DNA of 64,000 nt from Tamlana sp. I1 (GTDB lineage Bacteria; Bacteroidota; Bacteroidia; Flavobacteriales; Flavobacteriaceae), in NCBI RefSeq assembly GCF_015355625.1, contig NZ_JACLAF010000004.1, positions 1 through 64,000 on the forward strand, read 5' to 3'. A model generated the notes under the pieces. The model was not told the origin of the DNA, did not search any database, and was given only the letters and a program-made list of their open reading frames with translations. Both the position numbers and the translations under genes were made by a program. Below, piece by piece: positions 15,652-44,234 of the stretch; the first letter of the stretch is position 1, and every line of letters begins with the position of its first letter.

Positions 15652-16481
15652 TTTTTGGTTGTTGGTTATTGGTTGCTGGTTTTTAGCTATTAGCCTTTAG
15701 CTGTTTGCTTTTGGCAGATTTACAACTGCGAATATATTACCCGGTTATTGCAAAACACATTTAAGTTCCAATATGTCAGGCAGAGCGTGTCGAAGCCTAT
15801 TTTAGAGGAATTGGTTTTTGGTTTTTTTGCTATTATCCTTTAGCTGTTTGCTTTTGGCCCTTAGTCAATAGAAATTTACAACTGAATAGTTCATTATTCA
15901 GTTATTGCAAAACACATTTAATCTCCAAAATGTCAGGCAGAGCTTGTCGAAGCCTTTTTTCGATGGGTTTGGTTATTGGTTGTTGGTTTTTTGCCTTTAG
16001 CCTTTAGCTTTTTGCTTTTAACCATTAGAGATTTACAACTACGAGTTTATTATTTGGTTGTTAGTAATTGGTTTTTAACTTTTAACTCATAACTCTTATC
16101 TCATAACTCATAACTGAAAATTGTTAGCCATTAGAAATTTACAACTATGAGTTTATTATTTGGTTGTTAGTAATTGGTTTTTTAGTTTTTAACTCATAAC
16201 TCATAACTGAAAATTATTAGCCTTTAGCTGTTTGCTTTTGACCCTTAGCCATTAGAAATTTACAACTGAAAAGTTTATTATTCGGTTATTGCAAAATACA
16301 TTTAAGTTCCGAAAATGTCAGGCAGAACTTGTCGAAGCCTTTTTTCGATGGGTTTGGTTATTAGTTTTTGGTTGTTGGTTTTTAGCCTTTAGCTGTTTGC
16401 TTTTGGCTCTTAGCCTTTAGAAATTTACAACTACGAGTTTATTATTTGGTTGTTAGATATTGGTTTTTTAGTTTTTAATTT

Positions 16482-16530
16482 TTAACTCTTAACTCTTAAC
16501 TCTTAACTCTTAACTCTTAACTCTTAACTC
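16482..16530 (+). repeat. perfect heptamer tandem repeat (TTAACTC)7
   Basis: Seven exact tandem copies of TTAACTC, continuing as degenerate copies (TTAACTG, TTAATTG, TTAGCCT) to about 16551. This is the most homogeneous block of the larger array. The lack of divergence suggests recent slippage expansion. Confidence 0.95.
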
Positions 16531-17288
16531 TTAACTGTTAATTGTTAGCCTTTAAAAATTTATAACTGAAAAGTTTATTACCCGATTATTGCAAAACACA
16601 TTTAAACTCCGATATGTCAGGCAGAGCTTGTCGAAGCTTTTTTAGAGGAATTGGTTATTGGTTTTTAGCCTTTAGCCTTTAGCTGTTTGCCATTAGAAAT
16701 TTACAACTACGAGTTTATTATTTGGTTGTTAGATATTGGTTTTTAACTTTTAACTCTTAACTGTTAATTGTTAGCCATTAGAAATTTACAACTGAAAAGT
16801 TCATTATTCGGTTATAGCAAAACACATTTAATCTCCAAAATGTCAGGCAGAGCTTGTCGAAGCCTTTTTTTAGATGAATTGGTTTTTAGCTATTAACCCT
16901 TAACTTTTTGCTATTAGAAATTTATAACTGAAAAGAGTTATTATTCGTTTTTTAGTTTTTAACTATTAACTCTTAACTCATAACTGAAAATTGTTAGCCA
17001 TTAGAAATTTACAGCTGAAAAGTTTATTATTCGGTCATCTACAAAACACATTTAATCTCCGATATGTCAGGCAGAGCTTGTCGAAGCCTTTTTCGATGGG
17101 TTTGGTTATTAGTTTTTGGTTGTTGGTTTTTAGCTGTTTGCTTTTGACCCTTAGCCATTAGAAATTTACAACTGAAAAGTTTATTATTCGGTTATTGCAA
17201 AATACATTTAAGTTCCGAAAATGTCAGGCAGAGCTTGTCGAAGCCTCTTTTAGAGGAATTGGTTGTTAGTTATTGGTTTTTTAGTTTT

Positions 17289-17335
17289 AAACCACAAACC
17301 ACAAACCACAAACCACAAACCATCAACCAAAAAAA
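17289..17335 (-). repeat. (AAACCAC)n heptamer block abutting the cydB stop
   Basis: Four exact AAACCAC copies (17289-17316) are followed by AAACCAT and CAACCAA, reaching the cydB stop codon (complement of CTA at 17336-17338). Read on the minus strand this is a GGTTTGT-type array downstream of cydB, the same T/G-rich polarity relative to its gene as the array after sprF. Confidence 0.9.
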
Positions 17336-18355
17336 CTACCCTTCAAAAACCTTAATCATTTTAAAAGATTTCATTAAGTGAAATAATCCAGGAAGAATAA
17401 CAGCCCCACCAATAATTAAAGAAATTCCTAAAACTTGAATCACCTTATCTGGGGATGCAGAAGCTAAAAGGTCTACTTGTGTATTTGAAGCCATTATTAA
17501 AACCGGAAAATGCGTTACAAAGGCAGCCACTAAAATTAAAACTACTTGCAGACCAGCAAGGAATCTGGTGCGTACTTTTTTAGCTTTTTTGATGCTTTTT
17601 AAAAGCGGAAAAATTAGAATCGCCGATAAAACAACCAAGCCTAATGTGATTGGGTTTTTAATAAAATCGGTAACAAAAGCGACTTCATGATAGAAGCCAT
17701 AGCAGATAAGAATAAAACCTATAAAGACAACGGCAACGGTTGCTTTTTCAGATTTCACCACATAAACCGATCGGTTTGTTGCTGTAGATTCTCCAATTAA
17801 TAAAATGGAGGTTAAAAAAGTACATAATGCAGCAAAAAAGACCCCTACTAAGATTGAAAATCCGTTAAACCAAGGATTAATAAAAAGTTCTACAAACGAA
17901 TAGTTTTCGTAATCTTCAGTAATAATAAGTTCACCTGAAAACATCGCGCCAGCCGTCATTCCTAAAAAAATGGGGGTTATTAAGCTAGAAATTCTAAACA
18001 TCCAATCGTATAGAATTTGAGATCGGTCTTTAAACGCATCATAATGTCTAAAAACAAAGGCAACCCCACGCATGGTAATACCTAGTAAAACTAGTGTTAA
18101 CGGAATGTGTAAATACACAACCAGTACATTATAAAATTTAGGAAATCCTACCCAGAGAATCACCACTAAAATAATAATCCAAATATGATTGGCTTCCCAA
18201 ACAGGTCCCATTACACGGTAAATGGTCTTTTTGGTAAGCTGTTGGTTCTTTTTAGTAGAAAATAGCTCAACAATACCAGCGCCAAAATCAGCTCCAGCTA
18301 AAATGACATAAAGTAACAAAGACACCATTAAAAAAAATAAAACAACGTATAGCAT
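17336..18355 (-). CDS. cydB: cytochrome bd ubiquinol/menaquinol oxidase subunit II
   Basis: Integral membrane subunit II of the bd-type quinol oxidase, a high-affinity terminal oxidase that reduces oxygen to water. The 339-residue protein shows the family's N-terminal helix with the GADFGAGIVELF motif, the PVWEANHIWIIILVV segment and about eight or nine hydrophobic helices. Its length is normal for CydB. It begins one base after the cydA stop, so the two are certainly one operon and probably translationally coupled. Its 3' end abuts a heptamer repeat block. Confidence 0.95.
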   Translation of the reverse strand: MLYVVLFFLMVSLLLYVILAGADFGAGIVELFSTKKNQQLTKKTIYRVMGPVWEANHIWIIILVVILWVGFPKFYNVLVVYLHIPLTLVLLGITMRGVAFVFRHYDAFKDRSQILYDWMFRISSLITPIFLGMTAGAMFSGELIITEDYENYSFVELFINPWFNGFSILVGVFFAALCTFLTSILLIGESTATNRSVYVVKSEKATVAVVFIGFILICYGFYHEVAFVTDFIKNPITLGLVVLSAILIFPLLKSIKKAKKVRTRFLAGLQVVLILVAAFVTHFPVLIMASNTQVDLLASASPDKVIQVLGISLIIGGAVILPGLFHLMKSFKMIKVFEG

Positions 18356-18356
18356 G

Positions 18357-19661
18357 TTAACTTAGGTTTGGATGATTAAGTGATTTAATTTGACGTCCCA
18401 TTAACCAGGTTACGGCAATGGTTAAAATAGTATAGAGACCCACATACAAATGGAAACTGTAAATCATTCCAGGCATCGGGGTTACAGCATCTTTAGTTTT
18501 CATAATCTTATGTATAATCCATGGTTGTCTACCTACTTCGGTAACAATCCATCCGGCTTCTAAAGCAACAAAGCCTAAAGGAGCTAGTAGTGCAAAAAGC
18601 AACCAAAATTTTCGACTTTTCCACCATGATTTTTTAAAAAGACTCGTAAAAAACAATAAACCAGCAAGTAGGAGTAGGGTACCAATACCAACCATAATTT
18701 GAAAGGCATAATGAACAATAGCGACATTAGGGTGTTCATCTTCAGGAAAATCGTTAAGTCCTTTTACTTCAGCATCAAAATCGCCAAAGGCTAGAAAGGA
18801 TAAAGCTTTTGGGATTTCAATTTTATGAGTTACTTCTTGTTTTTCATTATTTACAATACCACCAATATACAGCGGGGCTCCTTTTTGGGTGTGGTAGTGG
18901 GCTTCCATAGCCGCCAATTTTACAGGCTGTCTTTCTGCGATATCTTTAGCCGATAAATCGCCGCTTATAGGTTGTAATATAGCTGCAACAGCACCAAAAG
19001 TAATGGCGATTTTAAACGCTTTTTTGTGAAGTACGATATGGCGTCTTCTAAATATTTGATAGGCATGAATTCCAGCAACAGCAAATCCTGTAGCAGTAAA
19101 GGCTGCTAAAGTCATATGTAAGGCTTGCGTAAACCAAGCAGGGTTAAGAAAGGCTTTTACAGGATCGATATTAAAAAATTCACCATTAATATAATCAAAA
19201 CCAGTAGGGGCATTCATCCAGGCATTAGCCGAAACGACTAGAATTCCCGAAGCAACTCCCGAAACGCCAACGATAATCCCTGTAAACCAATGGAATTTCT
19301 CAGGGATTTTATCCCAACCATATAAATAAAAACCAAGGGCAATAGCTTCAACAAAAAACGCAGCACCTTCTAAAGAAAAGGGCATGCCAATAATTGGGCC
19401 GGCATGTTCCATAAATTCAGGCCAGAGTAGACCCAATTCAAATGATAGAGCAGTTCCAGAAACAGCACCAACCACAAAAAAGATAGCGACTCCTTTTTGC
19501 CATGATTTAGTAAGTTTTAGATAAACTAAATCACGTGTGTTTAACCATTTTTTGTGGGCAACAATCATGAAAAAAGGCATAACCATGCCAATACATGCAA
19601 ATACAATGTGAAAAATAAGCGTAAATGCCATTTGCAGTCTTGCGGCATCTAAATTATCCAT
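18357..19661 (-). CDS. cydA: cytochrome bd oxidase subunit I
   Basis: Quinol-oxidising, haem-bearing subunit I of cytochrome bd, about 434 residues. The N-terminal MDNLDAARLQMAFTLIFH places His18 where the b595 ligand is expected. ALHMTLAAF supplies a second conserved His, and GRQPW near the C-terminal third is the family quinol-site signature. The protein is shorter than E. coli CydA (522), which fits the short Q-loop class. A frame extension to a TTG at 19688 adds MFSHFKPSF, which is not family-like, so I chose the ATG at 19661. cydB follows directly. No cydX-like small ORF was evident. Confidence 0.95.
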   Translation of the reverse strand: MDNLDAARLQMAFTLIFHIVFACIGMVMPFFMIVAHKKWLNTRDLVYLKLTKSWQKGVAIFFVVGAVSGTALSFELGLLWPEFMEHAGPIIGMPFSLEGAAFFVEAIALGFYLYGWDKIPEKFHWFTGIIVGVSGVASGILVVSANAWMNAPTGFDYINGEFFNIDPVKAFLNPAWFTQALHMTLAAFTATGFAVAGIHAYQIFRRRHIVLHKKAFKIAITFGAVAAILQPISGDLSAKDIAERQPVKLAAMEAHYHTQKGAPLYIGGIVNNEKQEVTHKIEIPKALSFLAFGDFDAEVKGLNDFPEDEHPNVAIVHYAFQIMVGIGTLLLLAGLLFFTSLFKKSWWKSRKFWLLFALLAPLGFVALEAGWIVTEVGRQPWIIHKIMKTKDAVTPMPGMIYSFHLYVGLYTILTIAVTWLMGRQIKSLNHPNLS

Positions 19662-19757
19662 AAATGAGGGTTTAAAGTGGGAAAACAAATATACTTGATA
19701 TCGTTTTGTAAACCCTAATTATTTCGCTTAAAAAGATAGAAAAACCTTAGGCGGCAA

Positions 19758-20792
19758 TTAATCTTTTACAATTTCAATTTCAAATAATTTATCCCAATGT
19801 TTACCTGTAACAAAAATAGTTTTGGTTTTTGGGTTGTAAGCAATCCCGTTTAGCACATCAAGATCTTTGTGTTGAGTTACCAAATTTTTAAGCGGCGTAA
19901 AGTCTACCACAGCAATAACAGCCCCGTTTTTAGGATTTATAATCGCTACACCATCTTTTTGGTAACGGTTGGCGTAAATGTTTCCTTCAATCCATTCCAT
20001 TTCGTTAATGCCAACTATTTTGCCTCGGTTGGTATACACTTGAATGTGTTCTTCTTCAGAAAGTGTATCTGGATTTAACAACCAAATATTTTCCGTACCA
20101 TCACTTTTATAAATGGTGTTATCGACATGGCATAAACCCCAACCTTCTTTACTGTTTCCGTATTTAAAGCTGCTAATTTTTTCAAATGTATCCACATCGT
20201 ACACGAAACCTGTACCTTTTTGCCATGTTAATTGGTAAATTTTATCATTTAAAATGGTTAAACCTTCACCAAAATACTCATCCGATAAATTGATGTTTTT
20301 TAAAACACCTCCTGTTTTGTAATCTACTTTTCTAAGTTTAGAGGCTTTGTATTGGCCTGTACTTTCGTATAAAGTATCATTATAAAATTCTAAACCTTGG
20401 GTGTATGAAGTAATGTCATGAGGGTATTCGTTAATAATTTTATAGGTGTATACTTTAGGCAAATCACTGTTTAAAATGGTAATTGCAGAAGCAGTTGTTT
20501 GTTTTTCATTATTAAAATAAACGGTAGCTTCAAGAGTATGTTTGCCTAGTTTTTCATCTTTTAAACTATAACTTTCGGCTATAGGTTTTCCATTTAAACT
20601 ATACGTAATAGAATCTATAACGTGATCTTTTTTGTTCTTTACGGAAAGATTTAAGGTTTTATGATTGGAAATATTACCCTTTGTTGCATTCGTTTCAATA
20701 GAAAAATCACTTTTTTTATGCGCTCCGTTTGAACCGCATGAAATTATAGTAACACTTAAAAATATGATTGTGAGCTGTTTGAATAAAGTCAT
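19758..20792 (-). CDS. glutaminyl-peptide cyclotransferase (glutamine cyclotransferase) lipoprotein
   Basis: A 344-residue predicted lipoprotein: signal peptide with lipobox IISC (Cys19), then a roughly 100-residue Ig-like region, then a glutamine cyclotransferase beta-propeller domain beginning near YPHDITSYTQGLEFYNDTLY. The family converts N-terminal glutamine of peptides to pyroglutamate and is of the plant/bacterial QC type. Typical motifs are YTQGLE, YESTGQY and the repeated G-x-E-W-I-E-G / VTGKHWDKLFEI strands. It lies about 70 bases upstream of cydA on the same strand but may have its own transcript. The substrate is unknown; a periplasmic or surface location is inferred from the lipobox. 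Confidence 0.85.
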   Translation of the reverse strand: MTLFKQLTIIFLSVTIISCGSNGAHKKSDFSIETNATKGNISNHKTLNLSVKNKKDHVIDSITYSLNGKPIAESYSLKDEKLGKHTLEATVYFNNEKQTTASAITILNSDLPKVYTYKIINEYPHDITSYTQGLEFYNDTLYESTGQYKASKLRKVDYKTGGVLKNINLSDEYFGEGLTILNDKIYQLTWQKGTGFVYDVDTFEKISSFKYGNSKEGWGLCHVDNTIYKSDGTENIWLLNPDTLSEEEHIQVYTNRGKIVGINEMEWIEGNIYANRYQKDGVAIINPKNGAVIAVVDFTPLKNLVTQHKDLDVLNGIAYNPKTKTIFVTGKHWDKLFEIEIVKD

Positions 20793-20846
20793 TTTAAAAA
20801 TTTAATTTAAGGCAAGATATTTATTTAAAATCAGTTTAAAAAATCA

Positions 20847-20876
20847 TTGTGATAATTTTAAAAGGTTGTATATTTG
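20847..20876 (+). promoter_or_regulatory. Bacteroidota-type promoter of the SRP RNA gene
   Basis: A TTG at 20847-20849 and TATATTTG at 20869-20876 are separated by 19 bases. This matches the Bacteroidota primary sigma consensus TTG-N19-TAnnTTTG exactly. Transcription would start about 5-6 bases downstream, at the first bases of the SRP RNA. Confidence 0.8.
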
Positions 20877-20881
20877 CACCC

Positions 20882-20975
20882 GGCAAGTCCTACACAACCA
20901 GCTCCTGTTGAATCCTCCAGGTCGGGAACGAAGCAAAGGTAAATGGTCGTAGCGGTGTGATGTAGGTAGCTTGCC
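20882..20975 (+). ncRNA. ffs: signal recognition particle RNA (4.5S type)
   Basis: Small bacterial SRP RNA that pairs with the protein Ffh for co-translational targeting to the membrane. The ends GGCAAG (20882-20887) and CTTGCC (20970-20975) close the rod. The conserved apical core is visible as CCAGGTCGGGAACGAAGCA followed by GGT. A T-run directly after the closing stem acts as terminator. The exact promoter 5' of it supports an independent transcription unit. Confidence 0.92.
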
Positions 20976-21182
20976 TTTTTTTGTACCCAAAACTGAAATC
21001 TTGAAAGCCAAACTGCTTCAAGATTTTTTAGTTTTAGGAAGAAAAGTTGAAGGTTTGAAACTTTTAATTTTTTTAATGTTACCCTTCAGCCTAGTCTTTT
21101 TAAACAATATGAAAAGCTTCAATTTACTTACAAGCTTTCTTCAATATTATTGTATTTTTACCGCCTTAAATCTTAGAAATAA

Positions 21183-21986
21183 ATGTCGAAAGTTGTTTTA
21201 ATTACAGGTGGTTCATCTGGTATTGGTAAGTCTATAGGAGCATTTTTAACCCAAAAAGGTTTTGTTGTTTACGGCACAAGTAGAAACCCTGAAAATTATA
21301 AGGAAAGTCTTTTTCCTATTTTAGAACTGGATGTTAAGAATGAAAAAACCATTAAAGACACGGTTGCGACCATTATAGAAAAAGAAGGTAAACTGGATGT
21401 TGTTATTAATAACGCCGGTGCTGGTATAACAGGGCCTATTGAAGAAATTCCTGAAGCAGAAATAAAAAACAATTTTGAAACCAATTTTTTCGGACCAATA
21501 AAAGTAATTAAAGCGGTATTACCGCAAATGCGTAAACAGCATTCGGGCTTAATTATTAATATTACCTCTATTGCCGGATATATGGGCTTGCCATATCGCG
21601 GGGTTTATAGTGCTAGCAAAGGCGCTTTAGAGTTAATAACCGAGGCCTTTAGAATGGAACTAAAGGATTTTAATATTAAAATGACTAACGTGGCTCCTGG
21701 CGATTTTGCTACCAATATTGCAGCCGGACGATACCATGCACCATTATTAAAAGATTCGCCGTACCACAAGCCTTATGGTGATACTTTAGCGTTAATGAAT
21801 GCTCATGTAGACCATGGGAGTAATCCCGATATGATGGCCGAAGCAGTGTTTAAAGTGATTGAAACATCAAATCCTAAAGTACATTATAAAGTAGGGGCGT
21901 TTATGCAAAAGTTTTCAATTGTGCTGAAACGTATTTTGCCTGATAAGATGTATGAAAAACTTTTAATGAATCACTATAAGTTGTAG
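21183..21986 (+). CDS. short-chain dehydrogenase/reductase (SDR) family oxidoreductase
   Basis: A 267-residue classical SDR using NAD(P)H. The cofactor motif TGGSSGIG lies at residues 8-15, NNAG near 79, the catalytic Ser in the ITSIAGY segment, and the YSASK Tyr/Lys pair near 145. The length is standard. Sequence features resemble SDRs that act on lipid or carbonyl substrates, but the substrate cannot be read from the sequence. It is convergent with the next gene, whose stop lies two bases away. Confidence 0.88.
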   Translation: MSKVVLITGGSSGIGKSIGAFLTQKGFVVYGTSRNPENYKESLFPILELDVKNEKTIKDTVATIIEKEGKLDVVINNAGAGITGPIEEIPEAEIKNNFETNFFGPIKVIKAVLPQMRKQHSGLIINITSIAGYMGLPYRGVYSASKGALELITEAFRMELKDFNIKMTNVAPGDFATNIAAGRYHAPLLKDSPYHKPYGDTLALMNAHVDHGSNPDMMAEAVFKVIETSNPKVHYKVGAFMQKFSIVLKRILPDKMYEKLLMNHYKL

Positions 21987-21987
21987 T

Positions 21988-25899: not shown

Positions 25900-26668
25900 T
25901 ACAAAAAAACCAACAATGAACAATTAACAAATAACAATTCTCAGTTAACAGTTAACAGTTAACAGTTAAGAGTTTAAAACTAAAAAACGAATAATAACTC
26001 TTTTCAGTTATAAATTTCTAATAGCAAAAAGCTAAGGGCTAATAGCTAAAAACCAACAACCAAAAACTAATAACCAAATAATAAACTCAATCGAAAAAGG
26101 CTTCGACAAGCTCTGCCTGACATATCCGAGCTCAAATGTATTTTATAAATGACTGAACAATAACTCTTTTCAGTTGTATATTTCTAAAAGCTAACAGCCA
26201 AAAGCAAACAGCTAAAGGCAAAAACCAAAAACTAGTAACCAATACCCAACCCCATTGAAAGCGGCTTCGACAAGCTCTGCCTGACATATCGGAACTCAAA
26301 TGTATTTTGTAAATGACTGAATAATAAACTTTTCGGTTGTAAATTTCTAAAAGCTAACAATTCTCAGCTAATAGTTAAAAGTTAAGAGTTAAAAACTAAA
26401 AACCGAATAATAACTCTTTTCAGTTGTATATTTCTAAAAGCTAAAAGCTAACAGCCAAAGGCTAAAGGCAAAAGGCTACCAATACCCAAACCCATTGAAA
26501 GCGGCTTCGACAAGCTCTGCCTGACATATCGGAACTCAAATATATTTTATAAATGACTGAATAATAAACTTTTCAGTTGTATATTTCTAAAAGCTAACAG
26601 CCAAAGGCTAAAGGCAAACAGCTAAAAACCAAAAACCAAAAACCAGTAACCAAAATAAACCAATAAAA
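25900..26668 (-). repeat. second composite heptamer/linker repeat array, downstream of the DUF6048 gene
   Basis: Same family as the array at 15.7 kb, in the opposite orientation. On the minus strand, reading away from the DUF6048 stop at 26669, it begins with ten heptamers of the GGTTTTT/TTTAGCC type. It continues with linkers (five copies of the AACTGAAAAG-type linker start, read in complement near 26001, 26168, 26329, 26416 and 26570) and three CAGGCAGAGCTTGTCGAAG modules (complement near 26100, 26266 and 26506). The far end is an AGTTAAC heptamer block at about 25934-25970. No gene is present. The gap 25829-25899 holds nothing recognisable. Confidence 0.88.
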
Positions 26669-27394
26669 TCACTTCTTAAAAAATGGAACTCTATAAGAAA
26701 CTATAAAACCGTATCCAGCACCAATACGGCTACTATCGTAGGTTTTTCCAAAGCCAGGGATATAAACGTTTTCAAAATTATCAACAGCAGTTTCAGAGGC
26801 TAAAAAGCGTAATTGTAGATTAACTCCTATGTAAAGGTTTGTTAGGACTTCAGCCTTTAATCCTAGTTGTATTTCTCCCCAAAAGGCTAATAAACCGTTA
26901 AATTCTTTTGTTTCTTGTAAGGTTAATTGGGGTGCCCAATATTGATTAGTAGCATAAACAGTGGCACTATTTAAATCGTGACTAAAAGTACTTGCACCAG
27001 CTCTAAAGCCAAAATAAATCATGTTATCCATGTCCAACCAGTTTTCATACATATTGTAATCAACACCAGCTTTTAAATAACTTCCTTGGCTGGAAATATT
27101 CATATAATCGGTAATGGTATTTTTTTCTTCAGTACCTATTTCACCAGCTATATAAAGACGTTTTTTAATTCGGAAATCGGCAACAATTTCAAAACCTTTA
27201 TAATCATCATCTATTGCAGTGCGTACTAACTTACTAATATCAGCACCAACTCGAAGGCCGTATTTTAACTTTACGCTTGTAGAATCTTTTGTTTTCTTAT
27301 CAGCAGTTTCACCCTGAGCTTGAACATTTATAGTACAAACAAAAAAGAAAACAATAAGATTAATGCCATATAATAAACTGTGCTTCATTTTCAT
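26669..27394 (-). CDS. DUF6048 family outer-membrane beta-barrel-like protein
   Basis: A 241-residue protein with a signal peptide ending NVQA-Q and alternating strand patterns (LKYGLRVGADISKLV, LYIAGEIGTEE, YLKAGVDYNMYEN, IYFGFRAGASTF) ending in an aromatic residue near the C-terminus. This fits an outer-membrane barrel of the DUF6048 family, conserved in Flavobacteriia. Its start overlaps the 3' end of the upstream DUF6452 gene by 35 bases, so the two are cotranscribed and probably coupled. Function is unknown. Confidence 0.72.
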   Translation of the reverse strand: MKMKHSLLYGINLIVFFFVCTINVQAQGETADKKTKDSTSVKLKYGLRVGADISKLVRTAIDDDYKGFEIVADFRIKKRLYIAGEIGTEEKNTITDYMNISSQGSYLKAGVDYNMYENWLDMDNMIYFGFRAGASTFSHDLNSATVYATNQYWAPQLTLQETKEFNGLLAFWGEIQLGLKAEVLTNLYIGVNLQLRFLASETAVDNFENVYIPGFGKTYDSSRIGAGYGFIVSYRVPFFKK

Positions 27395-36232: not shown

Positions 36233-36303
36233 GAAACACTTGCAATTCAATTTATCACAACTACATAAGGCTAAGTAATCATTCTAACCGGTTTCTTCTT
36301 TTT

Positions 36304-37386
36304 ATGAAAAAGCAAACCATGATTAAAGCTATAAAAGTAAACAAGCCAGAGCCTATTAGCTCTAAAAAATCGTCGTTATTATTTGATGATTCTTCAGATG
36401 TGAAACTCACCATTAAAGCGTTAGAGCAGGGGAAATCTATATTAATTACAGGTTTTTTTAGTAACGGATTATTGCTATTAAATGCTTTAAAAAAGCATTT
36501 GAATAAAAAATATCCCAATAGCACTTTTCAAGAGCAGCGTAACTATCGTGCCGCCTACTTTAAGTTATCTAACCTTATTTTAATTGCTATCGTAGATTAT
36601 AAATTAACGGTGAAAAAAGCCCCAGTTATTGGTTGGTTAGAGCAATTATATTCGGAAAATAGCGATTTTTTATTGTCTTTTCCTCAAATACAAGGTTTAA
36701 ACAGTGCTTGGCAATGGTATAAAAACGGAATTTTAACCCCTGTTTTACGTAATAAATTGCAACCTTATTACGGCACTTATTTTCCAACGCGTTTCGATCA
36801 TTTAATATTTTTTGATAATTGGTTGAAACGTTATAAAGGCCCTAAAAAATCGGTTATTGATGTAGGGATAGGAAGTGGTGTTTTGTCTTTTCAAATGCTA
36901 AAATATGGTTTTCAAAAGGTTTTTGGAACAGATACCAACCCGAATGCGATTGTTGGTTTAACCGAATTTATGGGAAGCACCAAATTAGCAAGAAAGATAG
37001 AATTAGATTTTGATTCGCTTTTCGGAAAATTTAACTTCCCTGTGGAATTAATTGTTTTTAATCCGCCTTGGTTACCACAATCTCATGCTTTAGATTGTAT
37101 TGATGAAGCAATTTATTATAACGAAAATTTATTTCCAGATTTTTTTGAAGCAGCAAAACAACACTTACTTCCAGAAGGAAAATTGGTGATTATCTTCTCG
37201 AATTTGGCGCAAATAACAGACGTTACAAAAGAACATCCTATAGAAAAGGAACTCGCTGAAGGTGGCCGTTTTCAATTGGAAAAATGCTATAGGAAAACAG
37301 TAAAAAAAGCTTCAGATAAAACAAAACGCGATCAACACTGGCGTGCTTTAGAAGAAGTTGAACTTTGGGTTTTAACTCATAATTAG
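36304..37386 (+). CDS. SAM-dependent methyltransferase with NPPW motif
   Basis: A 360-residue protein. The N-terminal 160 residues form an unrecognised domain (SILITGFFSNGLLLLNALKKHL). The C-terminal half is a class I SAM methyltransferase with VIDVGIGSGVLSFQML (motif I, about 180) and VFNPPWLPQ (motif IV, about 250). NPP[YFW] is the signature of enzymes that methylate a planar nitrogen (adenine N6, guanine N2 or glutamine N5). The layout of an N-domain, a lead-in PTRFDHL segment and the catalytic domain recalls PrmC and RlmG/RsmC types. The substrate is unknown. It may be cotranscribed with the preceding dehydrogenase gene. Confidence 0.7.
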   Translation: MKKQTMIKAIKVNKPEPISSKKSSLLFDDSSDVKLTIKALEQGKSILITGFFSNGLLLLNALKKHLNKKYPNSTFQEQRNYRAAYFKLSNLILIAIVDYKLTVKKAPVIGWLEQLYSENSDFLLSFPQIQGLNSAWQWYKNGILTPVLRNKLQPYYGTYFPTRFDHLIFFDNWLKRYKGPKKSVIDVGIGSGVLSFQMLKYGFQKVFGTDTNPNAIVGLTEFMGSTKLARKIELDFDSLFGKFNFPVELIVFNPPWLPQSHALDCIDEAIYYNENLFPDFFEAAKQHLLPEGKLVIIFSNLAQITDVTKEHPIEKELAEGGRFQLEKCYRKTVKKASDKTKRDQHWRALEEVELWVLTHN

Positions 37387-37402
37387 GCTAAAACATTCCT
37401 TA

Positions 37403-39922
37403 TTAAAACTTCATCGTAGTTCTAACATTAAACACACGAGGTGTTAAATAGTTAGGAATTGCTATTGCTCTCTTGCTGTTTACATCGCGTACCCAAGTAT
37501 TTGTAATGGAGTTTTGAACATCGAAAATATTGTAGATTTCAACTCCGAAAGTCAGTTCTTTAAAGCGTTTTTTCCAACCGTTAGTAAATTGTTTATTAGC
37601 ATCAACTAAAACGTATTGTACGCCTAAATCGGCACGTTTATAATCAGGTAACCTTGTTTGATAATTGTATGGATCGGCATAACTTGGCGAACCTCCTGGC
37701 AATCCCGTGTTGTAAACCAAGTTAAGATACATTTTTAAACTGGGTACATTAGGTACATAATCTTGAAATAAAGCTGCAAATTTTAAACGCTGATCGGTTG
37801 GTCTGGCAATATAGCCACGGTTGTTAATGTTTTCTTCGGTTTTTAAAAATCCGAAACTAAACCAGGATTCTGTGCCTGGCACAAACTCACCATTTAAGCG
37901 CATGTCTAAACCATAAGCGTAGGCTACAGCTATATTTTCAGCACGATATCTAATTCGAACATTTTCTAAAGTATAGGGGTTTACATCAGTTAAATCTTTG
38001 TAATACACCTCGGAAGTGAGTTTAAAAGGTCTGTTCCACATTTTAAAACTATAATCATTTCCTAAAACAAAATGAACGGATTTTTGAGCCTTAACATCAG
38101 GTTGAACAACCCCGTTTGGATCTCGAAGTTCTCTGTAAAAAGGTGGTTGGTAATAATACCCTGCAGCCACTCTAAAAAGCATGTCTTTTTCCCAATCGGG
38201 TTTTATGCTAAATTGCCCTCTGGGGCTAAATACCGTTTGATTCGATTTTGAAATACCATGGCCACTAACCGTCCAGTTTTGAACACGAATTCCGGCATTG
38301 TACCAAACTTCGCTAGACCCAATGTCACTTCGTTTACTCCATTGGCCATACGCTTGTATTCTGTTAATTATGGTATGATTTGTTGCTCTAACATTTTGAT
38401 AAGGTTCAAGAGGTTCTGTATAGGGCACATAAGGTTGTTCGTTTGGAGCCGAATTTGGAGGTCTCACCGAAAAGCCTATCGAGTCTACAACTTCCCATTC
38501 TACTAAACGGTCTCTAATATCTTCATTAGTGTATTTTAAAGACCATTCAATACGGTGGTCATCCAGTTTAAAATTACCTTTATGCTCTATGTTTGTAATA
38601 AGTGCATCTAAATCATTTCTACCATGGTTTAGTTGGCCACCAATGCCTTCGCTATATTCAACTTCACCTAAATTTTCATCACCAATATTAGCATTTACTT
38701 CACCTAATCGATATTGTGCTAAAATATCAAAATGTTCTTGTTCTTGTGTGTTGTAGGTTGATGCAATTAGGTCTAAAGTTAAATCATCGTTTACAAAATA
38801 CGTCCCTTTAAATGCCCCAAATAATGTGTGGTATTGGTCTTTTTCTTGTCCTTCATAATACACTAAAAGCGCAACAGGGTCGGCAAGGGTTCCAAAGTTA
38901 GTTTGGCGTGTTTGTGGTTGGTAGTTGTATTTGTTTAAAGAAGCATTTCCTAAAAAACTTAAATGAAATTTGTTCGAAAAGCGATACGTAAAGTAGCCTT
39001 GTATATCACCAAAAGCAGGACGGTAATTGGTTTCGGTTTCTTTGGCGTTAACAAGTAATGCGTTGTCGCGGTAACGTGCACCAACAATGGCCGAAAACTT
39101 AGAATCTTTGCTCATGTTTTCTACAGAAACACTAGCGCCAAGTAGGCTAAAATCGGCATTAACTTCAAATTGATACGGGTTTTTATAAGTAATATCTAAA
39201 ACCGAAGATAGTTTGTCACCATATTTGGCTTGAAAACCACCAGCCGAAAAATCGACATTTTGCACCATATTTGTATTTACAAAACTCAACCCTTCTTGCT
39301 GTCCTGAACGAACTAAAAACGGACGATAAACTTCAATATCGTTAACATAAACAAGATTTTCATCAAAGTTACCACCTCGAACCGAATATTGGGTGCTTAA
39401 CTCATTGTTATTGCTCACTCCAGGTAGGGTTAAAAGTAAATTTTCAACACCAGCATTTGCCCCTGGAATTTTTCGAATGGCTTCAGGATCCAGAGTGGTT
39501 ATGCCTTCTATTTCTTTGCGTTGCCCACTTTTAATGGTAACCGTTGCAATTTGCTCTACCACAGTGCTCATAACAGGATTAAACTCGAAAATTTCACCAT
39601 TTTTTAAATTGAAAGTACTTTCAATTCTTTGGTTAGAAATATGAGTAAAAACCAGCGAAACATCTTGGTTTGATGGAATATCAAGCGTATAAAAACCGTT
39701 GGAGTTGGTTTTAGTACCTCCAGAATTGAATTTAATATTTACGTTTTCAACAGGGGTTTTGTTCTCATCAAGAATAACACCCTTAACAGTTGCGGTTTGT
39801 GCAAAACTGAGATTAAAAAGCGTAAAAAGTAGGGTAGTGGTTAGTAATAGTTTTGCTTTCAATAGAGTAATTGGTTTATTTTCGGTAAAATAACGCTTCA
39901 AAAGTAGAATTATTTCCCACAT
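37403..39922 (-). CDS. TonB-dependent receptor with carboxypeptidase-like N-domain
   Basis: An 839-residue outer-membrane receptor that uses TonB energy to import a ligand. A signal peptide ends at NLSFA-Q (about 42). Next come a CarboxypepD regulatory-like domain (TATVKGVILDENKTPVENV, about 43-125), a plug domain (NAGVENLLLTLPGV, YSVRGGNFDENLVYVNDIEVYRPF, about 150-270) and a 22-strand barrel ending TPRVFNVRTTMKF. No SusD partner is adjacent, so it does not look like a polysaccharide-utilisation locus. The ATG at 39922 lies inside the M23 peptidase gene (47-base overlap); a start at a downstream TTG closer to the signal core is possible. Confidence 0.87.
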   Translation of the reverse strand: MWEIILLLKRYFTENKPITLLKAKLLLTTTLLFTLFNLSFAQTATVKGVILDENKTPVENVNIKFNSGGTKTNSNGFYTLDIPSNQDVSLVFTHISNQRIESTFNLKNGEIFEFNPVMSTVVEQIATVTIKSGQRKEIEGITTLDPEAIRKIPGANAGVENLLLTLPGVSNNNELSTQYSVRGGNFDENLVYVNDIEVYRPFLVRSGQQEGLSFVNTNMVQNVDFSAGGFQAKYGDKLSSVLDITYKNPYQFEVNADFSLLGASVSVENMSKDSKFSAIVGARYRDNALLVNAKETETNYRPAFGDIQGYFTYRFSNKFHLSFLGNASLNKYNYQPQTRQTNFGTLADPVALLVYYEGQEKDQYHTLFGAFKGTYFVNDDLTLDLIASTYNTQEQEHFDILAQYRLGEVNANIGDENLGEVEYSEGIGGQLNHGRNDLDALITNIEHKGNFKLDDHRIEWSLKYTNEDIRDRLVEWEVVDSIGFSVRPPNSAPNEQPYVPYTEPLEPYQNVRATNHTIINRIQAYGQWSKRSDIGSSEVWYNAGIRVQNWTVSGHGISKSNQTVFSPRGQFSIKPDWEKDMLFRVAAGYYYQPPFYRELRDPNGVVQPDVKAQKSVHFVLGNDYSFKMWNRPFKLTSEVYYKDLTDVNPYTLENVRIRYRAENIAVAYAYGLDMRLNGEFVPGTESWFSFGFLKTEENINNRGYIARPTDQRLKFAALFQDYVPNVPSLKMYLNLVYNTGLPGGSPSYADPYNYQTRLPDYKRADLGVQYVLVDANKQFTNGWKKRFKELTFGVEIYNIFDVQNSITNTWVRDVNSKRAIAIPNYLTPRVFNVRTTMKF

Positions 39923-41561
39923 TATCGGTTACAATTACTTTTAAATTATTCTTTGTATCGGTTACAACACCATCACTAAAATCGTGAGTAAGTGTTTTAG
40001 TTTTATAATCATACTCCATTAAAATCCATTTTCCGTTTACCGTAGCTCTGTAATTTGAAATGCCAGATCCTACATCGTCAATTTTAAGTTTAAGGTATTT
40101 GTAATCGCTAATCCATTGCTCATTTTTAAAATTTGAAGCTTTAATGGTTGGTTTTACGGTATCTGTCGCGATGGTATATAAGCCTAATTTATTAGTGCTT
40201 CCTATTAGTAAATGACCCTTTCTTTTAGTTGATGTGTAACTAGGGTATTTATTACGCCCAACAAGTCGTACAATATAAAGTTTACTCTGGTCTTCATCAG
40301 AATAATGACTCATATCAAAAGTTATTGTAAAATTCTTTTTAGTGGCTCGTGCATCTTCATCAAGCTTAAGTATGTCGTTTTTAACTTCGAAATCAATATA
40401 GAAATCTTCGTAAAACGTATCTTTATAAAAATCAACAGAAACACGACCTTCCTTTAAATTCGTGGTTTGGTTTTTATTAATAAAATAAGGTGTGGTTTTT
40501 GGTGATTCTGCAATCAACGTGCTGTCTGCTTTACCTGTTATATGAATGGTAACCCAAGCTGAATTGTTTTTGAAATCTGAAACACGAATTTTATAAACCA
40601 CATGAGTACTATCTTTTATTTGTAAAACCCCGTTATTAACAATGGGTTTGATAATACTTAGCGGGTTGTTTATTTTGAATAATTTTTGAATACGTTTATT
40701 CGATTCAATATACGTTTGGTAGTCAATTAGGCGGTTGATGTATCTGGTTTCAGCAAAAGAAAAACGTTTAAAATCGAGTTCGAAATTTTCATTGCCATTT
40801 ACAAACGATTGAATGTTATAAACTCCATTTGAGTTTGGCGCTAAATCTTGACGATCAATCGTTTCAACGCCAAAGCCAATATTTCCGATAGCTTCAATGT
40901 TTTCGGTAGTATAATCGCCGTTACCAAGCGGTGCTAAAGTGAGTTTTCGTTTAGAATTGCTTTTATTTATAAACGAGTTATTATCTATAGGATAAGCGTA
41001 AATGGATTTAATTATAGGAATTGTGGTATCCTTAGTATCAATGCCAAAAAGCATTGGGTTCATGGGGCGTTCCTCTTTATCTCGAATTTCAAAATGTAAA
41101 TGAGGACCACCTGAGCCACCTGTGTTTCCGCTGTAAGCGATAAGACTATCTTTTAAAACGGGCAAAGATTCTGCATTCGGGAAAAGTTCAACTTCATAAG
41201 ATTCCTTTTCATGCTGATGTTTTTTTACAAAAGCTTCAATTTCAGGAGAAAACTTAAGTAAATGCCCATAAACAGTGGTGTACCCATTAGGATGTGTAAT
41301 GTACAAGGCTTTTCCGTAACCATAATGTGAAATTTTAATGCGGCTTATATAACCATTTGCCGACGCTTTAACCCGCAAACCTGTACGGAATTGCGTTTTT
41401 ATATCCATTCCAGAATGAAAATGGTTGGTGCGTAATTCGGCAAAGGTGCCTGCTAAAACAATAGGTATTTCTAAGGGATTACAAAAATAATCTTGTGGAT
41501 AATTATTTTGCGCATTAGAAATTAATGAAAAAACAAAAATTAAAGAAGTTATAAATCGCAT
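39876..41561 (-). CDS. M23-family metallopeptidase
   Basis: A 561-residue exported protein with signal peptide ISNA-Q (about 17). The LytM/M23 domain (about 35-170) shows the zinc motif H-S-G-M-D and the catalytic GGPHLHFEIRD. Members cut peptidoglycan cross-links or act as activators when degenerate; here the His and Asp residues are intact. The remaining 390 residues are beta-sandwich-like (Ig folds) without recognised catalytic motifs. The 3' end contains the start of the TonB receptor gene, which suggests a two-gene operon. Confidence 0.85.
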   Translation of the reverse strand: MRFITSLIFVFSLISNAQNNYPQDYFCNPLEIPIVLAGTFAELRTNHFHSGMDIKTQFRTGLRVKASANGYISRIKISHYGYGKALYITHPNGYTTVYGHLLKFSPEIEAFVKKHQHEKESYEVELFPNAESLPVLKDSLIAYSGNTGGSGGPHLHFEIRDKEERPMNPMLFGIDTKDTTIPIIKSIYAYPIDNNSFINKSNSKRKLTLAPLGNGDYTTENIEAIGNIGFGVETIDRQDLAPNSNGVYNIQSFVNGNENFELDFKRFSFAETRYINRLIDYQTYIESNKRIQKLFKINNPLSIIKPIVNNGVLQIKDSTHVVYKIRVSDFKNNSAWVTIHITGKADSTLIAESPKTTPYFINKNQTTNLKEGRVSVDFYKDTFYEDFYIDFEVKNDILKLDEDARATKKNFTITFDMSHYSDEDQSKLYIVRLVGRNKYPSYTSTKRKGHLLIGSTNKLGLYTIATDTVKPTIKASNFKNEQWISDYKYLKLKIDDVGSGISNYRATVNGKWILMEYDYKTKTLTHDFSDGVVTDTKNNLKVIVTDNVGNNSTFEALFYRK

Positions 41562-41683
41562 AAAAAAGTATAATGGCTAAAGTATTAATCATCGCTTTAA
41601 TAAGCAAAGAATAAAACAAAAATCAAACGGCTGTTTCTTTAGTAAACGCTTACTGAGGCTTTTAAAATTTTATGAAAAAACAA

Positions 41684-41714
41684 TTGTTATTTATACTTAG
41701 GAACATTAACTTTG
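41684..41714 (+). promoter_or_regulatory. Bacteroidota-type promoter ahead of the coiled-coil gene-zapA operon
   Basis: TTG at 41684-41686 and TAACTTTG at 41707-41714 are separated by 20 bases, matching TTG-N19/20-TAnnTTTG. The predicted start is about 41721, roughly 18 bases before the ATG. Confidence 0.75.
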
Positions 41715-41738
41715 TGAGATAAGTATTGAAAATTATAA

Positions 41739-42029
41739 ATGAGTAATATTGAAGATATTGTAGTTTCGTTAGAAGGCAAGATTGGTAAATTATTACACAA
41801 GATGGCTGTTTTAAAGCAGGAAAATTTGAAATTAACTGAAGAATTAAAGGTTTCTAAAGAAGAAATTTCAACTCAAAAACAGCAAAATGCTGGTTGGGAA
41901 GAAAAATATGAAGCTTTAAAAATGGCAAATTCAATACTTGGTAGTGACGATAATAAAAGAGAAACGAAGCTTAAAATAAATGCATTAATTCGGGATATTG
42001 ACCATTGTATTACGCAACTTTCCGATTAA
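41739..42029 (+). CDS. small coiled-coil protein upstream of zapA
   Basis: A 96-residue, almost entirely helical protein with heptad-patterned residues (VSLEGKIGKLLHKMAVLKQENLKLTEEL and IRDIDHCITQLSD). No catalytic motif is present. It sits 15 bases before zapA under one promoter, which suggests a role with ZapA in Z-ring assembly, comparable to but not demonstrably homologous with ZapB. That functional link is inference from position and structure only. Confidence 0.72.
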   Translation: MSNIEDIVVSLEGKIGKLLHKMAVLKQENLKLTEELKVSKEEISTQKQQNAGWEEKYEALKMANSILGSDDNKRETKLKINALIRDIDHCITQLSD

Positions 42030-42044
42030 TGTTAGAAAAATTCA

Positions 42045-42332
42045 ATGTCAGACAAGCTTAAAATAAAGCTATCAATAGCCAATCGTGTATATCCTTTAAC
42101 AATTGATTCTAGTCAAGAGGAAGGTTTGCGAAAGGCAGCTAAAAACATTGAAGTAATGATTAAACAGTTTGAGCAAAGTTATTCTGTTCGAGATAAACAA
42201 GATGTTTTGGCCATGTGCGCTTTACAGTTTGCATCTCAAGTAGAGCAGAAATCTATTGATAAAGCAAATGTGTCAGAACATGTTGAAGAAAAGCTAAAAG
42301 CTTTAAATGATTTGTTGCAATCGCATATTTAG
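42045..42332 (+). CDS. zapA: cell division protein ZapA
   Basis: A 95-residue FtsZ-associated protein. The N-terminal globular head (IKLSIANRVYPLTIDSSQEEGLRKAAKNIEVMIKQFE) and the central helix (RDKQDVLAMCALQFASQVEQK) are characteristic of ZapA, which cross-links FtsZ protofilaments. The length is normal for the family. The next gene is a predicted 6S RNA and then rny; zapA next to ssrS is also the arrangement in enterobacteria. Confidence 0.88.
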   Translation: MSDKLKIKLSIANRVYPLTIDSSQEEGLRKAAKNIEVMIKQFEQSYSVRDKQDVLAMCALQFASQVEQKSIDKANVSEHVEEKLKALNDLLQSHI

Positions 42333-42370
42333 TCTCTTAAAACGTTCTTTAAAATAAACTAAAAGTTACT

Positions 42371-42557
42371 GCCTACATTGGTTATTTTTTTTGATAAACT
42401 CAACGTTAATTCTTTAAAAAGGGTGAGTTTAAGTTGTAAAAGCATGCTGCATTTTTTGATGTATTTCAAATTTTAGCAGACCCTTGATCAGCTTGTTAGC
42501 CCTAAACTTGTTTTTAAGGAGTTTATACAAAATTTTATGCTGGTGTAGGCTTTTTTT
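42371..42557 (+). ncRNA. ssrS: probable 6S RNA
   Basis: The 251-base gap between zapA and rny folds into a long rod. GCCTACA (42371-42377) pairs with TGTAGGC (42544-42550), ATAAACTC (42394-42401) with GAGTTTAT (42519-42526), and AAGGGT near 42418 with ACCCTT near 42480. A small CTGC/GCAG hairpin lies further in. The closing arm is followed by a T-run. A roughly 185-nt rod with a central bubble next to zapA fits 6S RNA, which binds housekeeping RNA polymerase in stationary phase. The family call rests on shape and position, not on a covariance search, and the ends are approximate. Confidence 0.65.
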
Positions 42558-42583
42558 ATATATGAAAATCAACTAAATCAACG

Positions 42584-44158
42584 ATGGATAACTCAATTAT
42601 ATTTGCAGTAGGTGGTGTCATATTAGGGCTTGTAATAGGCTTTATTATAGCAAAGACACTGGAGAAAAATAATGCTTCTAAATTAGTACAAGAAGCTAAG
42701 AAAAATGCAGCTTCAATACTTAAAGAAGCTAATAGTGAAGGTGAAAACCTTAAAAAAGATAAAATACTTCAGGCTAAAGAAAAATTTATAGAACTTAAAT
42801 CTGAACACGAAAAAGTTATTTTATCTCGTGACAAAAAGATGGCTGAAGCCGAAAAACGCACACGTGATAAGGAATCTCAGGTTTCAAGTGAAGTTTCAAA
42901 AAACAAAAAACTTAATGAAAGCCTTGAAAATAAAATCAAGGATTACAACCACAGACTCGATGTTGTTGAAAAACGTCAGGAGGAAGTAGACAAACTTCAT
43001 AAAAGCCAGATTCAACAATTAGAAGTTATTTCTAGTCTTTCTGCTGAAGAAGCTAAAGAACGCTTGATAGAATCCTTAAAAGGTGAGGCTAAAAATGATG
43101 CGATGGCGTTTATTCAAAACGCATTAGAAGAAGCTAAATTAACAGCAGAGCAAGATGCCAAGAAAATTATAATTAATACCATACAACGTATTGGAACCGA
43201 GGAGGCTGTAGATAACTGTGTGTCTGTATTTAATATAGAATCCGACGATGTTAAAGGTCGTATTATTGGTCGTGAAGGTAGAAACATTAGAGCTATTGAA
43301 GCGGCTACAGGTGTTGAAATTATTGTAGATGATACGCCAGAAGCGATTATTTTATCTTGTTTCGATTCGGTTAGAAGAGAAGTAGCGCGTTTGTCTTTAC
43401 ATAAATTGGTTACCGATGGAAGAATTCACCCAGCGCGAATTGAAGAAGTTGTTAAGAAAACGCAGAAACAAATCGAGCAAGAAATTATTGAAGTTGGTAA
43501 ACGTACTGTAATAGACTTAGGGATTCACAATCTACACCCAGAACTTATTAAAATGGTAGGTAGAATGAAATACCGTTCTTCTTACGGTCAAAACCTACTA
43601 CAACACTCGCGTGAAGTTGCTAAACTTTGTGGTGTTATGGCTGCCGAATTAGGCTTAAACCCAAAACTAGCAAAACGTGCAGGTTTATTACACGATATAG
43701 GAAAAGTGCCAGATGCAGAAGCAGATATGGAAACACCTCACGCTATTTTGGGAATGCAATGGGCAGAGAAATATAACGAGAAAGATGAAGTGTGTAACGC
43801 CATTGGAGCGCACCACGACGAAATAGAAATGAAATCGTTATTAGCACCAATTATTCAAGTTTGTGATGCCATTTCAGGAGCAAGACCAGGAGCTAGACGT
43901 CAGGTTTTAGATAGTTATATTCAACGTTTAAAAGATTTGGAAGATATCGCTTTCGGGTTTACAGGTGTTAAAAAGGCTTATGCTATTCAAGCGGGAAGAG
44001 AGTTAAGAGTTATTGTTGAAAGCGAAAAAGTAGACGACCAAAAAGCTGCTGAATTATCTTTTAGCATTTCTCAAAAAGTTCAAACCGATATGACTTACCC
44101 AGGACAAGTTAAGGTCACCGTAATAAGAGAAACAAGAGCGGTTAATATTGCGAAGTAA
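42584..44158 (+). CDS. rny: ribonuclease Y
   Basis: A 524-residue membrane-anchored endoribonuclease that starts mRNA turnover. In order: one N-terminal helix ([19 protein letters not shown], about 5-24), a long coiled coil (about 25-200), a KH RNA-binding domain ([22 protein letters not shown], about 220) and an HD metal-dependent catalytic domain (LLHDIGKV, about 365). The length and order are canonical. It may share a transcript with zapA, but the 6S-like RNA and its T-run lie between them. A terminator follows. Confidence 0.95.
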
Positions 44159-44177
44159 TTTGCAACAGATATAAAAT

Positions 44178-44206
44178 AAAAAATCCAGCTATATGCTGGA
44201 TTTTTT
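44178..44206. terminator. bidirectional intrinsic terminator between rny and xerD
   Basis: AAATCCAGC-TATAT-GCTGGATTT hairpin with an A-run before and a T-run after it. It serves convergent rny and xerD. Confidence 0.85.
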
Positions 44207-44210
44207 ATTT

Positions 44211-44234
44211 CAACCATCAACCATCAACCATTAA
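44211..44234 (-). repeat. short heptamer array abutting the xerD stop
   Basis: Three tandem CAACCAT copies plus TAAC run directly into the xerD stop codon (44235-44237). Read on the minus strand it is a GGTTGAT-type array immediately 3' of xerD, the same polarity as the other heptamer arrays relative to their genes. Confidence 0.85.

Follow-up and report, generated by a model that had tools for sequence, protein, structure and literature searches.

In the marine flavobacterium Tamlana sp. I1 and many of its relatives, arrays of seven-base repeats (heptads) are anchored at gene ends, change fast, and run with their G-rich strand outward from the gene. The starting point is a stretch of 64,000 nucleotides (contig NZ_JACLAF010000004.1, positions 1 to 64,000; hereafter the window), for which a reading made from the letters alone, here called the sequence-only reading, had placed such arrays at the stops of sprF, cydB, xerD and a DUF6048 gene, with the T/G-rich strand as the sense strand. 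The pattern is real and strong, and it holds well beyond the window; the rule, however, is that the keto-rich (T/G-rich) strand points outward at both gene ends, and not that it is the sense strand at 3' ends. Slippage is most likely the motor, and we hold with moderate confidence that replication slippage gives rise to these heptanucleotide simple-sequence arrays and expands them in place, in untranslated DNA at the gene edge.

Placement of the arrays at gene edges

The assembly of the window's own genome amounts to 4.04 Mb in 32 contigs, the window being C27:1-64000. From it we analysed 1,189,453 bp (the 64-kb window and 1,125,453 bp elsewhere; 29% of the genome), together with 80 xerD loci of relatives (1,589,933 bp from named Flavobacteriaceae and allied records) and stretches from four other genomes (1,379,793 bp). 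Genes were called with our own hexamer-based caller, no published one being used, which gave 925 genes and 89% coding sequence in the own-genome sample. The sampling was non-random: G183, G131 and G252 were picked for TTAGYTG matches, G003 for being one contig, and the 80 relatives by xerD, and the own contigs are likewise no random draw; moreover, counts are partly non-independent because the species are related.

Over all samples, 92 intergenic gaps bore arrays, 13 of them being the gap after xerD in the 80 loci, and 14 array segments lay outside gaps. In the 79 remaining gaps an array edge fell within -20 to +10 bp of 52 of the 101 stop edges and of 14 of the 57 start edges. Where at least 60 bp of the gap were free, this applied to 29 of 66 stop edges as against 5.4 expected under uniform placement (z 10.7), and to 6 of 44 start edges as against 3.8 expected, which is not significant. 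Thus, a positional excess is demonstrated at stops, whereas for starts it is not significant, and the contention of the sequence-only reading that the arrays are not due to random insertion is upheld (29/66 vs 5.4). Among strong segments (score of at least 17) within 100 bp past stops, xerD included, 42 begin at -9 to 5 bp, 14 at 6 to 20 bp, 3 at 21 to 45 bp and 10 beyond 45 bp. Averaging the autocorrelation by position round stops proved too blunt a measure, as arrays stand at just 2-3% of stops.

Divergent gaps are avoided, contributing 5 of the 92 array gaps as compared to 551 of all 2228 gaps of at least 40 bp. The rate of arrays per stop is similar in convergent (25/850) and tandem (27/1252) arrangement, with xerD arrays left out of the numerators, and a need for a convergent gap is ruled out by the closeness of these two rates.

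A search with triple repeats widened the range. Of 299 family genomes, 42 carry (TTAGYTG)x3 and 36 carry (TTGGTTG)x3; among 296 genomes of the phylum, (TTAGYTG)x3 is present in 14. At 30 TTAGYTG loci, each from a different genome, the onset of the array falls between -9 and +21 bp of a same-sense stop in 23 cases and between -7 and +15 bp of an opposite-strand gene's start in five (one of the five open reading frames (ORFs) having just 87 amino acids); of the other two arrays, one lies 40 bp from an opposite-strand start and one is without a called left gene. Four further loci, read from genomes beyond the window's class, all show sense polarity; in two of them a long frame closes 2-3 bp before the array, and the other two have 34-37 bp between the stop and the first perfect triple, an interval that appears largely heptad-like by eye. 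In one of the other genomes (G183, L207-L226), TTTGTTN arrays stand directly upstream of starts, with an A/C-rich sense strand, beside stop-anchored TTGGGTG and TTGAATG arrays.

Seven of 60 junctions have a detected terminator stem 1-12 nt past the array, so that at least there the array fills the spacer between stop and terminator; the other 53 have no detected terminator adjoining the array. In array-free genes a terminator was detected in 623 of 2040, starting at a median of 25 nt past the stop. As the sole cause of the abutment, terminator spacing is therefore a partial account only, given 7 of 60 array genes with an adjoining terminator. Past the 3' array edge, A makes up 50-56% at positions +0 to +2 (99 arrays of at least 49 bp), to which terminator A-tracts may contribute.

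Strand polarity

Polarity was assigned by keto-richness in place of G-richness, G versus C being computed separately at stops, and ambiguous cases (16 stop edges, 3 start edges and 14 gaps) were excluded. At the 52 stop edges the keto-rich strand leads away from the gene in 34, towards it in 2, and is ambiguous in 16; sprF, cydB and xerD of the window supply three of these 34. At the 14 start edges the corresponding figures are 10, 1 and 3. That the T/G-rich strand is the sense strand at stops thus holds in the sampled genome and its relatives (34 vs 2), and the tabulation of distance and strand over 29% of the genome and the relatives shows a preference both for stops and for one strand. The proposed restriction to 3' ends, however, falls, since starts are also abutted, again with outward polarity (10 vs 1).

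Base counts agree. In a set of 82 stop junctions (18 from the own genome, 17 from relatives, 27 from the other genomes and 20 from TTAGYTG loci), the sense strand is richer in G than in C in 75 and poorer in 5, as compared to 41% and 47%, respectively, past the stops of 1959 array-free genes. Ten of these junctions are xerD (relatives or window), the G131/L187 locus is counted twice, and two are orthologous Maribacter genes; with the 11 junctions from the relatives' xerD-array loci dropped, G exceeds C in 65 of 71 and falls below it in 4. A keto fraction of at least 0.6 is found at 7-12% of array-free stops and one of at most 0.4 at 13-17%, so the base composition of 3' regions is ruled out as the cause, array-free stops having no keto excess. 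Two of three sets have a mild bias of equal sense in the DNA upstream of array-free starts.

Of 54 gaps with a single polarity, 45 have the keto-rich strand's 5' edge closer to an ORF (median 4.5 vs 84.5 bp) and 9 its 3' edge. Eleven gaps are of mixed polarity, and in 10 of them the keto-rich strands leave both genes, with the reverse in 1; a tail-to-tail gap, L156, goes against the outward rule. Counter-examples with the keto-rich strand towards the gene are two stops (own contig C23 at 12598 and L165 at 3814) and a start (own contig C2 at 24708).

Periodicity, units and coding

Periodicity in the window was scored by a 22-of-28 match at a given lag: there are 198 passing positions for lag 7 and none for lags 5, 8, 10, 11 and 13, an excess which shows that the period is not due to chance. 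The own-genome sample holds 60 lag-7 segments and 0, 0, 1 and 0 at lags 5, 10, 11 and 13, respectively; lag 8 gives 13, and the multiples 14 and 21 give 45 and 35. As in a slippage array, tandem units of 7 nt thus stand far above other unit lengths across 1.19 Mb of own sequence. A smaller class of 8-bp arrays is also seen near gene ends, for example on the rny side of L143 (by eye).

The units are diverse and mostly TTRGYTN-like; in the own genome their diversity is close to that of random heptamers of equal composition, and in G183 they are more alike. Array lengths have medians of 8, 12 and 7 units in three data sets with no overall peak at 4, under a threshold that disfavours short arrays. 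Potential for three-tier G-quadruplexes is found in 0/60, 1/38 and 3/60 arrays of the three sets (4/158), and two-tier G-quadruplexes are possible in 51 of 158. Three-tier G-quadruplexes are accordingly ruled out as the cause for these units. Own-genome arrays are non-coding, as the sequence-only reading had claimed, with one doubtful exception among 56. This coding-scored case (G000:C23:195322-195412) shows a polarity switch inside a called reading frame, possibly a miscalled ORF.

The arrays of the window

The window's arrays and the genes that they adjoin are the following.

14674..15651, + strand: sprF (PorP/SprF, PF11751, by Pfam), its C-terminus one residue shorter than in five sister genomes.
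15652..15715, + strand: heptad array 0 bp past the sprF TAA, the keto-rich strand being the sense strand.
15652..17335, + strand: composite satellite of 1.68 kb filling the sprF-cydB gap, made of heptad runs and a core of about 100 bp with the REP-like (repetitive extragenic palindrome-like) GGCAGAGCTTGTCGAAGCC.
17289..17335, - strand: heptad array on the cydB sense strand, GGTTTGT x4 and neighbours, 0-6 bp past the cydB TAG.
17336..18355, - strand: cydB (PF02322, by Pfam), its stop at the position of the compared sister orthologue's, the last residues differing.
25905..26655, - strand: composite satellite of 0.75 kb, akin to the sprF-cydB satellite.
26587..26655, - strand: heptad array near the DUF6048 gene, called end 26652 or 26655, the keto-rich strand being the sense strand.
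26669..27394, - strand: DUF6048 gene (PF19515), its C-terminus complete against the Pfam profile.
44180..44204, no strand assigned: terminator-like hairpin between rny (+) and xerD (-), its stem 2 nt past the end of the xerD array.
44210..44234, - strand: TTAATGG(TTGATGG)2TTGA, 0 bp past the xerD TAG.
44235..45131, - strand: xerD-like tyrosine recombinase (PF00589) of 298 amino acids, its stop at the family position.

The junctions of sprF, cydB and xerD, at 0, 0-6 and 0 bp from the stops, are as the sequence-only reading described them. The fourth is less exact: the array near the DUF6048 gene lies 13-16 bp past the TGA, a looser junction than the others. On the sprF side the heptads from 15652 read TTTTTGG TTGTTGG TTATTGG TTGCTGG, and the polarity at the cydB end is opposite (head to head). 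Since the sprF and cydB arrays are the two ends of one satellite, the window holds three arrays and not four independent cases. Each composite satellite includes a core of about 100 bp without heptad pattern, and the xerD array occupies the interval between the xerD stop and the terminator-like hairpin. The four genes have no function in common as judged by Pfam. Single TAACTGA words are found within the window arrays. Rfam at gathering scores returned nothing in the window beyond a 6S-Flavo RNA (42398-42524, +) and a small signal recognition particle RNA (20874-20980, +).

Composite satellites also occur on own contigs C2, C5, C7, C12, C23 and C26. A 23-base query from the REP-like core gave 58 matches in the genome at up to 3 mismatches, several of them near the ends of C2, C5 and C7, which suggests that the satellites may break the assembly; a literature search with the core sequence found no match. 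As to synteny (REARRANGEMENT), in five sister genomes sprF and cydB lie over 100 kb from each other or on separate contigs, which places the sprF-cydB satellite at a rearrangement joint. The distance from sprF to xerD is about 11 kb in four sisters and 28.6 kb here, the fifth sister having the two on different contigs. By eye, the DUF6048 gene seems to have a different 3' neighbour in most sisters.

Stop codons and array register

Array genes keep their native stops. For 31 of the 82 genes that abut an array, the analysed sequence included an orthologue lacking a called array; compared with the best such orthologue, 27 of the 31 stop at exactly the same residue and all 31 within 2 amino acids, as against 50 and 64 of 78 control genes, and without the ten xerD genes the figures are 17 and 21 of 21. 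In some of these "array-free" orthologues (e.g. L091 and L092) there are sub-threshold heptad-like traces.

The identity of the stop is shifted. At 62 junctions TAG is used 31 times, TGA 16 and TAA 15, the genome-matched expectation being 14.6, 5.4 and 42.1, respectively, and the own and other genomes without xerD loci (n=45) give 22, 12 and 11. Where the array starts at or after the complete stop (39 of 82 junctions), TAG accounts for 16, TAA for 12 and TGA for 11. A sense-strand stop trinucleotide recurs in 54 of 81 arrays. With regard to register, the stop matches the array at all three positions in 18 of 81 junctions at shift 7, and in 0-6 at shifts that are not multiples of 7; at least two positions match in 42 of 81 at shift 7 and in 45 at shift 14, as against 5-26 at other shifts. 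Roughly half of the arrays thus take the stop as their first unit, while the rest begin beside it out of register.

Change between relatives

The window's xerD shares 90% identity with its counterpart in Tamlana sp. 2_MG-2023, and 88-89% with the T. haliotis and T. agarivorans genes. In six genomes of the genus the gene always ends in TAG and encodes a 298-residue protein, and what follows it is (TTAATGG)15, (TTAATTG)10, TTAATGG(TTGATGG)2, a mixed TTATTGG/TTGTTGG/(TTAATGG)2 run of four to five heptads, or, in two cases, a short T/G-rich trace. The xerD loci of G001, G004 and G005 (L147, L092 and L091) are present in both the genus set and the set of relatives. Of the 80 relatives' loci, 11 have a called array within -10 to +3 bp of the xerD stop.

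Two pairs of orthologues capture a change in copy number. L096 and L107 (99% protein identity) carry ten near-perfect and three imperfect heptads, respectively, with closely similar downstream flanks, and L135 has (TTAGTGG)3TTAGTG where L123 has 'TAATAGTTAGTG', that is, three and a half versus one to two heptads with an identical flank start. These differences are expansion in place, as expected of slippage arrays, and xerD units also vary within the genus. In both pairs it is local heptads that have expanded. The suggestion of an element that targets 3' ends is not supported, given that sister species have different units at one site and that short precursors exist.

Origin of the arrays

Our preferred reading, growth in place by slippage, builds on the direct observation of copy-number change in place (two pairs), native stops, partial register, polarity, and abutment at stops and starts; that replication slippage is the motor we infer. 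The stop is often the first T-R-G/A of the first heptad, so that the array would grow outward from the stop into the spacer and keep the stop's register. The gene product would stay intact because the native stop position is kept, though TAA is often swapped for TAG or TGA. Fast turnover of units would leave different units at one stop in sister species, and the inner edge of the array would be fixed by coding constraint. The strand rule would come mainly from the stop-containing seed and from selection, both of which we infer; upstream of starts, the opposite strand would place TTG/GTG/ATG starts in all three frames.

Several observations weigh against this reading. First, the shift to TAG and TGA persists where the array begins past the complete stop (27/39), which a seed inside the array does not explain. 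Second, about half of the junctions are out of register with the stop yet keep the polarity, and units without any stop trinucleotide (TTGGCTC, TTGGGTG) also follow it; the weakest step of the reading is the rarity of the opposite polarity past stops that are out of array register. Third, a second stop trinucleotide at a distance of 7 nt is not in excess among array-free genes, and the predicted class of seeds, a pre-existing second stop at that distance, is thus not visible. Furthermore, a neutral model would expect arrays anywhere in the gap and not a peak at 0 bp. Units are also more similar within than between the own genome and G183 (a difference matched by 1 of 500 shuffles), a result not expected from local birth alone. 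Finally, unit purity is equal at both array edges (37 vs 35 with 27 ties, 99 arrays), lending no support to growth from one edge.

A functional 3' untranslated region (UTR) or boundary element under selection, for which slippage only supplies the raw material, is a tentative alternative that we consider doubtful. In its variants a U/G-rich RNA (or its C/A-rich antisense) would be bound by protein, Rho would act on antisense transcripts, or gene ends would be protected. It would suit the strictness of the polarity (G>C in 75 of 82 junctions and G<C in 5, as against 41% G>C in array-free genes) with its C-poor sense strand, the presence of arrays at one edge, xerD, in many species (11/80 loci), and the recurrence of sense polarity at stops of Bacteroidota outside the family (4/4 loci). 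However, the arrays are sporadic, unit and copy number vary even within the genus, the window's four genes have no shared function, and the rule also holds at starts, where the sense RNA is the other strand; in the accessible portion of Rehm et al. (2015; PMC4692102), no regulatory role could be identified for the heptamers of Xanthomonas and Nostoc.

Somewhat less probable still, and in our view unlikely, is an expansion coupled to transcription, in which RNA unshielded by ribosomes past the stop would form R-loops with the G-rich non-template strand exposed and slippage would proceed up to the terminator. This would account for why arrays begin at the stop and finish ahead of the terminator (detected in 7 of 60), and for the position of G on the non-template strand, but at starts the G-rich strand is the template (10 away, 1 towards), 53 of 60 array genes have no detected adjoining terminator, and convergent and tandem stops bear arrays at close rates. 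Of the proposal that the arrays are slippage products tied to transcription, slippage fits the two orthologue pairs, whereas the tie to transcription is not supported, as start arrays lie on the opposite strand with respect to the mRNA and the convergent and tandem rates are close. Causes based on three-tier quadruplexes or on transcription do not fit well, with 4 of 158 arrays capable of the former and outward polarity found also at starts.

We regard as improbable a mobile or telomere-like end-healing element that adds T/G-rich repeats at gene or broken ends and leaves arrays at rearrangement joints. The sprF-cydB satellite does lie at a synteny breakpoint, 10 of the 11 mixed gaps hold two facing arrays whose keto-rich strands lead away from both genes, and unit similarity is greater inside each of two genomes than across them. 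The heptads also presumably resemble T2RG telomere repeats. On the other hand, the xerD neighbourhood is kept in the window and several relatives (by eye), the two orthologue pairs show local expansion, and unit purity gives no sign of polar growth. Moreover, gene neighbourhoods round the Xanthomonas repeats are reported to be more stable, the opposite of the sprF-cydB case (accessible portion of PMC4692102).

Least probable of all is that arrays land in gene ends and make the stop, TRR in all frames closing the reading frame with abutment and polarity as side effects: recurring sense stop trinucleotides (54/81), raised TAG usage, the lost last residue of the window's sprF and the forward TAACTGA repeats that close all frames in the part of MacGregor (2015; PMC4679880) at hand would favour it, yet 27 of 31 array genes (17/21 without xerD) end as their array-free orthologues do, tighter than controls, and 39 of 82 arrays begin at or after a complete stop, so that C-terminal lengths largely rule out such mechanical stop-making.

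A wider reading, to which we give little weight for now, is that gene edges themselves nucleate arrays: a process sensing the end of translation or coding, preferring TAG and TGA and mirrored at starts, would create or fix heptads with the G strand outward in at least three phyla without the help of G-quadruplexes. If true, this would amount to a general law of strand-specific amplification in bacterial genomes, and not a feature of one sequence, with Bacteroidota from the present data and Xanthomonas and Nostoc from the available portion of Rehm et al. (PMC4692102) as the three phyla. Apart from this wider reading, the recurrence of the placement rule in repeats that can rarely form quadruplexes poses a sharp, testable question: what causes slippage arrays to start at coding edges on one strand? 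With a shift in stop codons and expansions between relatives, Flavobacteriaceae are a good system in which to watch array birth, and xerD is a ready test locus for array birth and change.

Comparison with known systems

Among prokaryote repeats of 5-11 nt, seven is the commonest unit length in most genomes, and DNA-polymerase slippage has been proposed for long simple sequence repeats (Mrazek et al. 2007, as cited in PMC4679880 and PMC4692102); the citing passages mention no gene-edge or strand rule. A further paper, available in part, deals with prokaryote satellites (PMC6749651). Our literature search, which left most subscription papers uncovered, found no nearer flavobacterial system of stop-anchored arrays. 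The sequence-only reading's statement that no such system is described thus stands for flavobacteria as far as searched, but not in general, as the placement rule appears in the accessible parts of PMC4692102 and TAACTGA repeats of Bacteroidetes in those of PMC4679880.

MacGregor (2015; PMC4679880), in the portion available, describes direct repeats of the heptamer TAACTGA in Beggiatoaceae, Cyanobacteria and five Bacteroidetes. They are mostly intergenic and, in the main genome (Beggiatoaceae), abut starts in one orientation, while one set in Flexibacter litoralis stands directly past a stop in reverse orientation; other heptamers accompany TAACTGA in Gramella and Aequorivita, and a role in gene rearrangement was suggested. 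Both the Beggiatoaceae starts and the Flexibacter litoralis stop fit the outward rule, whereas the Microcystis sample breaks it, with 6 repeats forward and 8 reverse with respect to the start and 8 between stops (n=22). There, one sequence dominates and is placed mainly at starts; here, placement is mainly at stops and the units are many and TTRGYTN-like, so that the arrays are not of the TAACTGA/TCAGTTA kind.

The closest likeness is to the G-rich heptamers GGGNATC and GGGGA(C/T)T of Xanthomonas and Nostoc, as given in the accessible portion of Rehm et al. (2015; PMC4692102). These lie almost exclusively nearer the 5' neighbouring ORF, whatever its orientation, with a preference for up to 50 bp upstream of starts (antisense strand) or up to 50 bp from stops (sense strand), stop overlap included. 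Both systems consist of heptamers that are mostly intergenic, rare in divergent gaps and variable in length between relatives, and in both the G-rich strand leads outward at starts and stops with its 5' side nearer the ORF. In contrast, the flavobacterial units are AT-rich, nearly all lack three-tier G-quadruplex potential (4/158), no overall four-unit peak is seen at a threshold that disfavours short arrays, the anchoring is within a few bp, and the stop is often in register and TAG/TGA-rich. That a placement rule of quadruplex repeats recurs in AT-rich repeats of another phylum, rarely capable of quadruplexes, weakens the quadruplex explanation. Thus, as far as that portion of the paper extends, the outward rule is the published rule of Rehm et al., there at lower resolution, and what is new here is the bp-precise anchoring, the partial stop register, the switching of stops, and units mostly unable to form G-quadruplexes.

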